Positions 58,023 through 62,016 of a DNA stretch of 62,207 bases are shown one piece after another. Source of the stretch: Petrotoga sp. 9PWA.NaAc.5.4 (lineage in GTDB: Bacteria; Thermotogota; Thermotogae; Petrotogales; Petrotogaceae); the NCBI RefSeq assembly GCF_002895485.1, contig NZ_AZRK01000020.1, positions 1 through 62,207 on the forward strand, written 5' to 3'. Below the pieces are notes generated by a model. That model made no database searches and was not told where the DNA came from. It was given only the letters and a program-made list of their open reading frames with translations. Position numbers and translations under genes: made by a program. Position 1 is the first letter of the stretch; every line of letters begins with the position of its first letter.

Positions 58023-59492
58023 TTAATATTTATGATATCTTTGCGAAGTACTCAAAACTTCCACTCCATTATTTTCTAACTCTTTTACATATGTTTCATA
58101 ACCTGGCAAGTTTGGTGGCACTATTATCTTTTTTATATTCCACTCTAAAAGTTTTTTTACAATTTTTTCAGAATTCACCGTAGAATCCAAAATCATAGTT
58201 CCACCCATGGGAGTTTCTTCTGCCAATTCTAAAATTTGTTCGAGACTTAACAAAGCTATTTCTCTATTTAAACACGATTGATTACCTGAATATATCTTAT
58301 TATCCTTAACATAAACAATTGTATCAGATTTATGATTCTTCGATACTTCAAACGCAACTTTTTCAACAAGAGTTGTATTAGGCGAAAACTTTAAAGAATT
58401 TTGTTTTATAACGAGATCTCCTTCTACTATATATTCATCTTCATATGTTAAAAGCTCTTTTTTGATTCTAAAAACCATAGGTTTAAAAGATAACATTTCT
58501 TCTGTATTTCCAATATTAGCCGAAGTTAATAAACAATCATGTCTTGATTCCTTCAACTCTTCAATTGTTTGTAAATCATCACAATACACTACTCCACCTT
58601 TCAAACGCTTAACAATATCTATAAATTTCATACTTTCTTCTTCAGAAGGATTTAAATAACCAAAAACAAACGTTCCTTTTTTTGAAAAACCCAAAAATCT
58701 GCCTTCTAAATTACTAACAAGAGAATATAATATTTTTACATCTTTTAATATCCTTAACGTTGGCTTTTTATAAGAAGTTAGATTCTCAAGATTATTCACA
58801 AAACTTTTTTTATCCAAAAATTTCATCAAAACAGCTTCTTGCATAGGATTGGAGCCATATCGTAAATTGCCCAAAATCTCAAAGAACTCATGATCAAACT
58901 TTTCAGAAGCAAAGAGTTCCGAGAAGACTTTATGGATACTTGCATCATACTTTGAAGAAGAAAAGAAGACTTTCAACGAAAGTTTTCTTCTCAATTGCAA
59001 TGGAACATCTCCACATTCTTCCAAATTTTCCCTCACATTTTGGTAATCATTTGGGTCTACCAAAGGTACAACATCCTTATAATTTTTAGCAGCAGCCCTA
59101 ATCAGAGAAAATCCACCTATATCCAAATAATCAAGTAGCTTCTCTTCGTTTGCAGTTTTTTTTGCCATATCAATAAATGAAGGAAAATTAATCACTACCA
59201 TATCAATCCTTTTAATATTATATTGCTCCATTTCTTCCTCATGAACTTTATCGTTCGACTTGGCTAATATTCCACCAAAAAGTTTGGCATCGATACTTTT
59301 TATTCTTCCATTTAGTATCTCAGGAAAATCTATATAATCAGACATCTTAGTAACCTCTATACCTTTAGCCTTTAAAAAAGATGCCGTACCTTCCGTACTA
59401 ATTATTTCAACACCATTTTCAAATAAGAATCTTGCAAAATCTTCTAAATTTGTTTTGTCATAGACAGAAATTATTGCTCGTTTAATATTCAT
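58023..59492 (-). CDS. Divergent PurH-like protein (IMP cyclohydrolase/AICAR transformylase fold, active sites eroded)
   Basis: This ~489-residue protein aligns along its length with PurH. The N-terminal half keeps IISVYDKTNLEDFARFLFENG, STEGTASFLKAKGI, FPEILNGRIK, DIGGFSLIRAAAKN and LRYGSNPMQ. But GRVKTLHP has become GRIKSIDA, the Tyr of VNLYPF is lost (INFPSF), the KHxxPxG motif of AICAR transformylase is missing, and SDAFFPF near the end is ETPMGGT. Full PurH activity is doubtful. I chose ATG 59492 (GGAGG eight bases upstream). It follows the asparagine synthetase by 58 bases on one transcript. Confidence 0.7.
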   Translation of the reverse strand: MNIKRAIISVYDKTNLEDFARFLFENGVEIISTEGTASFLKAKGIEVTKMSDYIDFPEILNGRIKSIDAKLFGGILAKSNDKVHEEEMEQYNIKRIDMVVINFPSFIDMAKKTANEEKLLDYLDIGGFSLIRAAAKNYKDVVPLVDPNDYQNVRENLEECGDVPLQLRRKLSLKVFFSSSKYDASIHKVFSELFASEKFDHEFFEILGNLRYGSNPMQEAVLMKFLDKKSFVNNLENLTSYKKPTLRILKDVKILYSLVSNLEGRFLGFSKKGTFVFGYLNPSEEESMKFIDIVKRLKGGVVYCDDLQTIEELKESRHDCLLTSANIGNTEEMLSFKPMVFRIKKELLTYEDEYIVEGDLVIKQNSLKFSPNTTLVEKVAFEVSKNHKSDTIVYVKDNKIYSGNQSCLNREIALLSLEQILELAEETPMGGTMILDSTVNSEKIVKKLLEWNIKKIIVPPNLPGYETYVKELENNGVEVLSTSQRYHKY

Positions 59493-59550
59493 AACTTCTT
59501 CCTCCATTATTAGTTTCTCTTTGCCAAATGTGACTCAGCTTTACTTCATA

Positions 59551-60510
59551 TTAAATTGAAAATTTCCCAGGTGCTTTTGCAAAAAGTCTTGATTTCTCCA
59601 CATGATCAAGGCCTAAGATATACCTCGTAAACCTTTCTATGCCTATTCCACATCCAGCAGAAGGTTCTAAAAATCCTTCTTTTGCAATATTTAAATAATC
59701 TTCATAACTTTCCAAACCATTACCCTTTAATTCTATCCTTTTTACTATCTGTTCGTATTCATTTTCTCTTTCTCCACCAGATATACCCTCACCAAAACCT
59801 TCAGGATAAATCAAATCAAAATCCAACAAAGTTTCTGGATCTTTAGCATTCTGTTTGTCATAAAACTCTCTTTCTAATATAAGCATATCTATCAACCAAA
59901 CTGGTCCTTCGCTATGCTTTGACAAAGCAACTTCATAATCATTGCCATAAAGGAGTTTAGCTTCTTTAACAGTAATTTTTTCAAAAGGTTTACTTGGAAT
60001 TTTCAATGTAGGATGATACTTTAATATTATATCAGAATATTTGTCTAAAATATTTTTAATAACATAAATTATCAAATCTTCCATTAAATCCATAATATCT
60101 TCTCTTTTCGCATTTTTAACTTCCAAATCTAACTGTACAAAATCTATTAAATGACGTCCCGATTGATACTTTTCTTCTCTTTCTAACCTTAAATTTGGAG
60201 AAACGGAAAATATTTTATCATGCACAAGAACTCCTACCTGTTTTTGTAAGATCATAGATTTTGTAACATAGTATTTATAACCATAATAATCAATTTGTGC
60301 ATCAAAAACATCATGATTCAATGGATCTGTAATCGTTGAAATAATTACCGGTAAGAATTCTATAAATCCTTTAGATAATAAAAATTCACGAGAAAACCTT
60401 AAAATTTCTGATTGAATCAATAAAGCATCTTTATAGGTTTCGTTTTTCAAATATTCTTCAACCAACTTAACAGAGTCAACTTTTCTACCTTCACTTTTTA
60501 CTTTTTCCAT
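59551..60510 (-). CDS. asnA: Asparagine synthetase, AsnRS-related (archaeal AS-AR type)
   Basis: This 319-residue protein is a class II synthetase-like catalytic core without an anticodon-binding domain. Motif 2 region: VSPNLRLEREEKYQSGRHLIDF; motif 3 region: SAGCGIGIERFTRYILGLDHV. DAQIDYYGYKYYVTKSMILQKQ, FGEGISGGEREN and the size match the asparagine synthetase described from Pyrococcus abyssi, which makes Asn from Asp, ammonia and ATP. It could be mistaken for AsnRS, but it lacks the tRNA-binding part. The start has AGGAGGGA upstream. A leader peptide with seven Asn codons upstream fits this role strongly. Confidence 0.88.
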   Translation of the reverse strand: MEKVKSEGRKVDSVKLVEEYLKNETYKDALLIQSEILRFSREFLLSKGFIEFLPVIISTITDPLNHDVFDAQIDYYGYKYYVTKSMILQKQVGVLVHDKIFSVSPNLRLEREEKYQSGRHLIDFVQLDLEVKNAKREDIMDLMEDLIIYVIKNILDKYSDIILKYHPTLKIPSKPFEKITVKEAKLLYGNDYEVALSKHSEGPVWLIDMLILEREFYDKQNAKDPETLLDFDLIYPEGFGEGISGGERENEYEQIVKRIELKGNGLESYEDYLNIAKEGFLEPSAGCGIGIERFTRYILGLDHVEKSRLFAKAPGKFSI

Positions 60511-60534
60511 AATTTCTCCCTCCTGAAATTAGAT

Positions 60535-60751
60535 ATTTTTACTCACTTTAGAAATTTTAAAACTTAGGTTTTGTCAATATTTTAGTCTTAAATTCATTCA
60601 AAAATACCTCCATGCTTCTAATCCTCATTAATCCCTAATTCCTTTAACTTTTTCGCTATGTGTAGCGAAAGAGAGGGGGAGGGCTCCGCCCCGGACCCAT
60701 TTTAAATTCAAAATCTTATTTTCTGAAGATTATCATTTCTAAAGTCCCTAT
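60535..60751 (-). repeat. Dispersed leader element, copy 11a (gene-proximal, asnA leader)
   Basis: This is the best-preserved copy. The ends show the inverted repeat ACTTTAGAAAT / ATTTCTAAAGT (about 60544-60554 and 60734-60744). H2 is a perfect TTTCGCTA-TGTG-TAGCGAAA (plus-strand reading) and H1 is GGGC-TCC-GCCC. It ends about 10 bases from the asnA ribosome site. Confidence 0.9.
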
Positions 60752-60943
60752 TAGATATTTTTTACTCACTTTAAAAATTATGAAACTTAGTTTTTGTAAA
60801 TATTTTAACGTTAATTTTTTATAAAATATCTTCATAATTTTAATATTTACTAATTATTTATTTTTTTTACTTCTTCGGTATTTTTACTGAGAGATGGAAA
60901 AGGCTCTGCCCTGAACCCATTATAAATTCAAAATTTATTTTAT
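60752..60943 (-). repeat. Dispersed leader element, copy 11b (gene-distal of a tandem pair)
   Basis: Head-to-tail second copy. Both copies share the junction sequence TTAGATATTTTTTACTCACTTTA. In the sense RNA H1 reads AGGGC-AGA-GCCUU with a G.U pair. H2 of this copy pairs better on the opposite strand. Confidence 0.8.
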
Positions 60944-60955
60944 TTACTAATTTTC

Positions 60956-61070
60956 TGATTGCGTAATCAGGTTTAACGGTTTTATACATACAAAATTTTC
61001 AATTTTACTTTATTGGAGTCGCCCATAACCCATATAGGTTGTTTAGCCTTGATTCGACCCCAAACATAAT
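60956..61070 (-). other. Possible structured RNA segment between attenuator and leader elements
   Basis: Downstream of the attenuator (minus strand) is a 7-bp closing stem GGGGTCG/CGACTCC (61055-61061 with 61015-61021) enclosing an inner AACC/GGTT hairpin, then a second small hairpin CTGATT-GCGT-AATCAG (60955-60970). No reading frame of note. It could be an mRNA-stabilising structure seen only in read-through RNA; I do not recognise it. Confidence 0.4.
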
Positions 61071-61107
61071 AAAAAACCGGCGCTGATTTTTTTTATTCAG
61101 CGCCGGC
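61071..61107 (-). terminator. Attenuator terminator of the asparagine leader
   Basis: On the minus strand CCGGCGCTGA and TCAGCGCCGG (61106-61097 and 61086-61077) form a 10-bp G+C-rich stem with an A-rich 10-base loop, directly followed by TTTTTT. There is no T run on the other strand, so it acts on minus-strand transcription. The 5' arm is also part of the antiterminator. Confidence 0.92.
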
Positions 61108-61150
61108 AATCTTTACAATAACAATACTACAGCGTTAATTGCCGACGCTG
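61098..61150 (-). promoter_or_regulatory. Antiterminator and pause hairpin of the asparagine attenuator
   Basis: RNA segment CAGCGUCGGCAAU (61150-61138), inside the leader peptide frame right after the Asn codons, can pair with AUUGCCGGCGCUG (61110-61098) over 13 bp with one U.G pair. That pairing removes the 5' arm of the terminator. The same segment can instead pair locally, CAGCGU with ACGCUG (61135-61130), which would leave the terminator free. The three structures exclude each other as in classical ribosome-mediated attenuation. Confidence 0.85.
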
Positions 61151-61201
61151 CGTATTATTATTATTATTATTATTAATTTTTAATAACTTACTTATTTTCA
61201 T
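61127..61201 (-). CDS. Asparagine attenuator leader peptide (24 residues, seven consecutive Asn)
   Basis: This tiny frame reads MKISKLLKI, then seven Asn (all AAT), then TQRRQLTL and TAG. GGGTG lies five bases upstream of the ATG, and a consensus promoter lies about 25 bases before that. The Asn run is placed directly before the antiterminator segment. A ribosome stalled for lack of Asn-tRNA would leave that segment free; one that reaches the stop would cover it and let the terminator form. The target, 570 bases downstream, is an asparagine synthetase. The gene is too short for routine gene finders. Confidence 0.9.
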   Translation of the reverse strand: MKISKLLKINNNNNNNTQRRQLTL

Positions 61202-61232
61202 AAAATCACCCAAACCAAATCAAATTTACTTA

Positions 61233-61261
61233 ATTTTAGCATAAAATTTTTAAGTTGTCAA
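61233..61261 (-). promoter_or_regulatory. Consensus promoter of the asparagine leader
   Basis: The minus strand reads TTGACA (61261-61256), 17 bases, then TAAAAT (61238-61233). This is the most canonical promoter in the window. Transcription should start near 61226, about 25 bases before the leader-peptide ATG. Confidence 0.9.
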
Positions 61262-61467: not shown

Positions 61468-62016
61468 ATGATCAATAATAGAGCGAAAATCATTTTGTTT
61501 TTATTGTCATATTTACCATTGTTTATTATATATGCTATTAATAATATAATTGTAGGAAACTATATTGTTTTTTGGATTTTTGTTTTAGTTATTATCGTAG
61601 TATGTTTACTTAGTTTATTGCTATTTAAAGCTGTTAAAAGAAAAGGTCGCAAAAGAAAGATAAACATTTTAAGATATCAAACAGTAAATCATAGACTGAT
61701 CGAATATATTTTTGTATATATTTTTCCATTTTTAGGATCTTTTGGAGAAATTGAACTTATTTCTTTTTTGATATTGTTTGTCGTTATTGGTAGTATATAC
61801 ATAAAAAGTGATCTTATTGCGATTAATCCAATTCTTTCATTATTTGGATATAGTATTTATGATATCGAATACTTCTTTTATGAAAATAAAGAGAAATTTC
61901 TTCAAGGATTTTTATTGGCTAAAGATATTGAAGAAGAAGGAGAAATCGTAGAAATAGAAGAAAAAATATTTATAAAATTTAAAAAGGGTAGGGGTATAAA
62001 CGTTGCAAAACAATGA
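61468..62016 (+). CDS. Four-helix membrane protein, possibly KwaA-like (anti-phage)
   Basis: This 182-residue protein has two N-terminal membrane helices (~7-28 and ~32-54), a basic loop (KAVKRKGRKRKI), two more hydrophobic segments (~76-92 and ~97-113), then INPILSLFGYSIYDIEYFF and an acidic cytoplasmic tail. The helix number, basic loop and NPILSLFGY segment resemble KwaA, the membrane part of the Kiwa phage-defence system, as far as I remember it; this is tentative. It ends just after the start of a following gene, which is the usual KwaA-KwaB layout, but that gene is broken here. Confidence 0.45.
   Translation: MINNRAKIILFLLSYLPLFIIYAINNIIVGNYIVFWIFVLVIIVVCLLSLLLFKAVKRKGRKRKINILRYQTVNHRLIEYIFVYIFPFLGSFGEIELISFLILFVVIGSIYIKSDLIAINPILSLFGYSIYDIEYFFYENKEKFLQGFLLAKDIEEEGEIVEIEEKIFIKFKKGRGINVAKQ

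Follow-up and report, generated by a model that had tools for sequence, protein, structure and literature searches.

How is an asparagine synthetase gene controlled when a promoter, a short reading frame containing seven consecutive asparagine codons, and an intrinsic terminator all lie upstream of it? The question is raised by the window, by which we mean the whole 62,207-nt stretch of Petrotoga sp. 9PWA.NaAc.5.4 DNA analysed here, for which a first-pass annotation had proposed the logic of trp and his attenuators turned to asparagine. Leader-peptide attenuators have been described for the trp, his, leu, thr, ilv and phe operons (PMC1183508), and the textbook cases come mainly from Proteobacteria and Actinobacteria (PMC1183508; PMC2965389). 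We hold with high confidence that the leader upstream of asnA is an asparagine-sensing, ribosome-mediated transcription attenuator of the trp/his type, responding to Asn-tRNA-Asn; at the level of sequence, the proposal draws support from architecture, conservation and covariation alike. The elements of the locus are as follows.

61233-61261, minus strand: sigma-70-type promoter TTGACA-17-TAAAAT (11/12 consensus, 17-nt spacer, TG before the -10 box)
61199-61211, minus strand: ribosome-binding site GGGTGAT and leader start codon ATG (61201-61199)
61127-61201, minus strand: leader peptide frame, MKISKLLKINNNNNNNTQRRQLTL*, 24 codons, stop codon TAG at 61127
61154-61174, minus strand: control codons, seven consecutive Asn codons (AAT)
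61137-61150, minus strand: segment A, CAGCGTCGGCAATT, the antiterminator 5' arm, predicted to be covered when a ribosome occupies the leader stop codon
61130-61150, minus strand: weak local hairpin CAGCG...CGCTG, seen in the sequence, a possible pause or 1:2-like hairpin
61098-61111, minus strand: segment B, GATTGCCGGCGCTG, the shared arm, which can pair with A (antiterminator) or with C (terminator)
61150-61138(7) and 61110(1)-61098, minus strand: antiterminator arm CAGCGTCGGCAAT(T) and its partner (G)ATTGCCGGCGCTG
61071-61106, minus strand: intrinsic terminator made of B, C and the T tract (10-bp stem, 10-nt A-rich loop, T6)
61106-61097, 61086-61077 and 61076-61071, minus strand: terminator arms CCGGCGCTGA and TCAGCGCCGG, then T6
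60515-61066, minus strand: interspersed intergenic repeat, two copies of a unit of about 220 nt, filling the spacer before asnA
59551-60510, minus strand: asnA, AsnRS-derived asparagine synthetase of 319 aa, the presumed regulated gene

Promoter, ribosome site, frame, hairpin arms and T6 were all re-found at the coordinates of the first-pass annotation. The 24-codon frame does carry its seven AAT codons, and their run is unique: runs of at least six AAY codons occur at a single site of the 2.2-Mb genome, which is the leader itself (two overlapping matches), and in 0 of 100 dinucleotide shuffles of the window. The 13-base segment said to pair either locally or further downstream is likewise present, and the A:B helix, with 14 contiguous pairs, was equalled by none of 400 shuffles. 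The 5' arm of the terminator (CCGGCGCTGA) falls within segment B, and the 10-bp stem followed by TTTTTT has a minimum free energy of -18.8 kcal/mol, with folding z-scores of -5.3 for the terminator and -4.1 for the antiterminator. The locus and its relatives thus present what is expected of an attenuator: a frame with a ribosome site near the promoter, a cluster of cognate codons, an intrinsic terminator between leader and gene, an antiterminator that excludes the terminator and is predicted to be covered when the ribosome is at the stop codon, and a codon run and helices conserved across species.

The gene past the terminator had been annotated as an AsnRS-derived asparagine synthetase, and this was borne out, with the addition of a repeat spacer of about 560 nt described below. 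Its product scores 427 bits against NF005054 (cut-off 309) and consists of the class II aminoacyl-tRNA synthetase catalytic core only (Pfam tRNA-synt_2, residues 21-312), without the anticodon-binding domain. The closest PDB chains are 1nnh and 3p8t, the latter matching over nearly the full length and deposited as archaeal asparagine synthetase A. The product is therefore predicted to be an AsnRS-derived (archaeal-type) asparagine synthetase, and in our enzyme tree it falls in a well-supported bacterial clade. Neither asnB (E value of 1e-60 or better) nor AsnA of the PF03590 family was found in the window's genome, so that asnA is apparently its sole asparagine synthetase; an AsnRS-like gene separate from asnA is also present (C12). 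A PurH-like protein is encoded 43 nt after asnA (58023-59507, minus strand), with an MGS domain and an AICARFT domain matched only in part. It scores below the NCBIfam cut-offs and may be a diverged paralogue that shares an operon with asnA.

The proposed sequence of events would begin with transcription starting a few bases past the -10 box and a ribosome loading on the leader frame. When charged Asn-tRNA is scarce, the ribosome would stall early in the run of Asn codons, leaving A exposed and free to pair with B the moment this segment is transcribed, before C exists; the A:B helix would then block the terminator, and RNA polymerase would continue towards asnA. When Asn-tRNA is plentiful, the ribosome would reach the stop codon and cover A, so that B would pair with C and transcription would end at the T tract. 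Translation of the leader, asparagine-dependent stalling and the relief of termination by it are inferred, as is the role of asparagine itself as the regulating signal.

This switch was modelled co-transcriptionally by folding a transcript truncated where C begins, with a ribosome placed on a chosen codon. In the window, the modelled probability of A:B pairing was 0.91 for a ribosome stalled at the first Asn codon, against 0.00 for one at the stop codon, in agreement with the earlier claim that stalling on Asn would expose the antiterminator segment and that a ribosome at TAG would hide it. Once C is present, equilibrium folding favours the terminator in the window whatever the state of the ribosome, and likewise in most leaders. 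Equilibrium folding of complete leaders was therefore rejected as a demonstration of the switch: it fails in most leaders, where the terminator wins, and the switch appears in truncated, co-transcriptional folding. The decision must accordingly be kinetic, as is usual for leader-peptide attenuators. Pairing probabilities discriminated only partly between leaders and shuffles, because the G+C-rich segment B pairs with something in most shuffles, and helix scores were used instead for the shuffle comparison.

Could asnA nevertheless escape an intact leader in this genome? The start of asnA (60510) lies about 560 nt past the terminator, a gap on which the earlier annotation was silent, and this gap is filled by the interspersed repeat, which has 68 matches in its own genome. 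Its units are spaced at 220-223 nt. A query of one unit gave 76 matches in the window's genome, 43 in one related genome (G003) and seven in another (G008), and one match or none in the other relatives tested. The repeat also contains shorter tandem units of about 105-135 nt, has no match in Rfam, and is missing from the interval between attenuator and asnA in those relatives that were read. The repeats might carry a promoter of their own or block read-through, uncoupling the gene from its leader. We consider this unlikely. The spacer holds no strong promoter on the asnA strand (the best reaches 9/12), and the intact state of the attenuator, whose helices are complete and whose control codons number seven, suggests continued selection on it in this genome.

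A search for the same leader upstream of asnA in relatives had been set beforehand as the comparison on which the asparagine attenuator should stand or fall, and both the Asn run and the mutually exclusive hairpins proved to be conserved. Upstream regions were compared across Petrotogaceae, Kosmotogaceae, Mesoaciditogaceae and two more families of Thermotogota; the family names of the loci are those that we presume from matching named public contigs and from general knowledge. A leader frame and a terminator were present at all 48 Thermotogota loci (the genes of asnA type with enough upstream sequence), and 41 of these 48 leaders contain three to nine consecutive Asn codons. Most relatives within Petrotogaceae and Mesoaciditogaceae have a TTGACA/TATAAT-like promoter of the same strength at the corresponding position, and ribosome sites resembling AGGTGAT or AGGAGG occupy the same position in most relatives. 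Outside the Asn run, the peptide is conserved only where segment A encodes its residues (QRR, GPGSVG, SIDIGRLG), which argues that the constraint there acts on the RNA.

Seven genes depart from a run of at least three Asn codons, and all seven keep the hairpins. Six belong to one genus of Kosmotogaceae (L027, L028, L043, L045, L046 and L047), with the run shrunk to DNN (DNNSWPGSVS and similar), and one is from Mesoaciditogaceae (L037), with DNDN (VDNDNP). The Asp residues beside the Asn codons in these leaders may mean that aspartate is sensed too, or that the sensor is decaying.

Three other readings of the leader, namely nascent-peptide arrest, a T-box or riboswitch, and an accident of sequence, all fit poorly. 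A short conserved frame ahead of a terminator is also what would be expected if the leader peptide arrested the ribosome in the manner of TnaC or SecM, with the Asn run as arrest motif and asparagine as a free ligand or irrelevant. The pattern of conservation just described, confined to the Asn run and the residues encoded by the pairing segment, speaks against this, as do run lengths that range from 2 to 9 and a regulated gene whose product makes the very amino acid encoded, and we regard peptide arrest as very improbable.

The attenuator requires that segment B serve two helices, and the alignments bear the mark of both. Among 19 Petrotogaceae leaders, 91% of antiterminator cells were paired with 16 double changes, and 97.8% of terminator cells were paired with 17 double changes; for either helix, none of 500 shuffles reached the pairing or the number of double changes. 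At one position, the terminator alternates between G-C and A-U while the antiterminator alternates between U-G and U-A, consistent with B being under two simultaneous pairing demands. In Mesoaciditogaceae together with one Caldisericum sequence, a 1:2-like hairpin and the terminator covary, and the Mesoaciditogaceae 1:2 hairpin is longer than the weak local hairpin of the window. The Mesoaciditogaceae antiterminator pairs are conserved and showed no covariation, so that support there comes from conservation and from the other two helices. Across 50 leaders, the ungapped A:B helix was no better than shuffles at the 5% level in ten.

The leader also follows the phylogeny of the enzyme. In a tree of 109 rows, it marks one supported asnA clade made of Thermotogota and Caldisericum, where 50 of 51 rows are labelled as carrying it; one labelled row (L038) has 56 nt of upstream sequence, too short to check, and the unlabelled one (L054) has 30 nt. 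L010, a gene of a Kosmotogaceae genome, clusters with the Petrotogaceae genes in the tree, and its leader resembles theirs, with KRR following the run; leader and gene thus appear to move together. No comparable leader was found before 20 Thermotogota asnB loci, or before the remaining homologues whose upstream sequence could be read, most of them archaeal and the rest from Bacteroidota, Clostridium and Micromonospora.

Outside the main clade, leaders were found in two Aminicenantes metagenome-assembled genomes (MAGs) and in candidate division B38, which are separate in the tree, MAG assignments being open to error. The B38 sequence shows the full architecture by eye, with CCTGATGGTGGG as A and CCCGCCATCAGG as B and a terminator left unscored by our scripts. 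In the last 300 nt upstream of the Aminicenantes asnA genes, Asn runs of 7 and 3+3 were found (L053 and L070), together with a hairpin GUCCCC/GGGGAC (GUCC/GGAC) that spans the leader stop codon and has no T tract; these leaders perhaps act through a different output, translational or Rho-dependent. On this distribution we tentatively propose, as a possibility that falls short of our preferred account of the window itself, an unreported family of Asn-specific attenuators that would be the standard control of asnA in Thermotogota, would have moved with the gene (Caldisericum; L010 in Kosmotogaceae) and would have arisen repeatedly (B38, on a different branch of the tree), the Aminicenantes combining the same sensor with an output other than an intrinsic terminator.

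T-boxes and riboswitches also work through a terminator and an antiterminator, and the leader RNA might in principle sense another signal through structure alone, the peptide being incidental. A T-box covariance model matched nothing in the window or across 41 genomes from the clade, no Rfam family was matched by the window or by 15 related loci apart from one tRNA, and no conserved aptamer-like element was seen upstream of the frame. Identification as a T-box or riboswitch was rejected for want of any model match, and we find such a sensor hardly credible. NCBIfam has no model that matches the leader peptide, and no second such leader, with a histidine run of at least five CAY codons, was found in the window's genome.

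That the run is a mere microsatellite and the hairpins the ordinary terminator of some upstream transcript, with no regulation, has next to no probability: the seven control codons here are all AAT, which does recall a simple repeat, but in relatives AAT and AAC are mixed in 32 of the 40 runs of at least four Asn codons, always in the leader frame (190 AAT and 61 AAC in the runs of all leaders), a synonymous mixing that indicates selection on the amino acid, and this artefact is ruled out by that mixing, by frame conservation and by the uniqueness of the run in the genome, while A:B and B:C covary and the arrangement is the mark of a single asnA clade, missing before asnB.

Having set these alternatives aside, we compared the asparagine attenuator with known systems. 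The his operon leader of Enterobacteria, hisL, contains seven consecutive His codons. The Petrotoga leader resembles it architecturally, in the long unbroken run of cognate codons within a short frame, the stop codon near the antiterminator arm, the mutually exclusive antiterminator and intrinsic terminator, and the downstream gene for biosynthesis of the same amino acid; it differs in that the amino acid is asparagine and not histidine, the host belongs to Thermotogota and the regulated gene is an AsnRS paralogue. With trpL of E. coli it shares a logic built on 1:2, 2:3 and 3:4 hairpins, and the Mesoaciditogaceae relatives show the full four-segment form. In Petrotogaceae, unlike trpL, the control codons are followed immediately by segment A, which serves as the antiterminator arm itself, and the local hairpin is weak; control codons typically number three to nine, against two in trpL.

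Firmicutes have T-box leaders specific for Asn. Such leaders share with the proposed attenuator the signal of charged versus uncharged tRNA-Asn and the terminator/antiterminator output; the Thermotogota leader would use translation instead of RNA that binds tRNA, in a clade where no T-box was found. A histidine leader peptide before hisS in bacilli has been inferred by comparison, and its authors wrote that, the atypical leader of ermC aside, leader-peptide systems were not known to them beyond Proteobacteria and Actinobacteria (PMC2965389). The asnA leader is like that of hisS in being a case of leader-peptide attenuation outside these two phyla proposed on comparative grounds, and unlike it in amino acid, gene and phylum.

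The mechanism is thus already known, and what appears to be new is the specificity for asparagine and the occurrence in Thermotogota. No description of an asparagine leader peptide was found in the literature searched; the work of Lopatovskaya et al. (2010), reportedly a comparative survey of attenuation in bacteria, lay outside that search and could list some of them. That survey is cited by PMC4833913 and PMC10272879. Priority for an asparagine leader-peptide attenuator is likely, not certain. Asparagine would join the list of amino acids under attenuator control, whose range would extend to a deep-branching thermophilic phylum. The sensor stays with one enzyme clade across large distances, and a separate origin in at least one further lineage is suggested. 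The leader would further allow the tightness of transcription-translation coupling in Thermotogota to be tested, and would provide thermophiles with a natural reporter that responds to asparagine.

Near the contig end, on the plus strand (61468-62016), lies a gene for a KwaA-like membrane protein, which scores 63.5 bits against NF041622 (cut-off 100) and is a possible divergent component of the Kiwa defence system.
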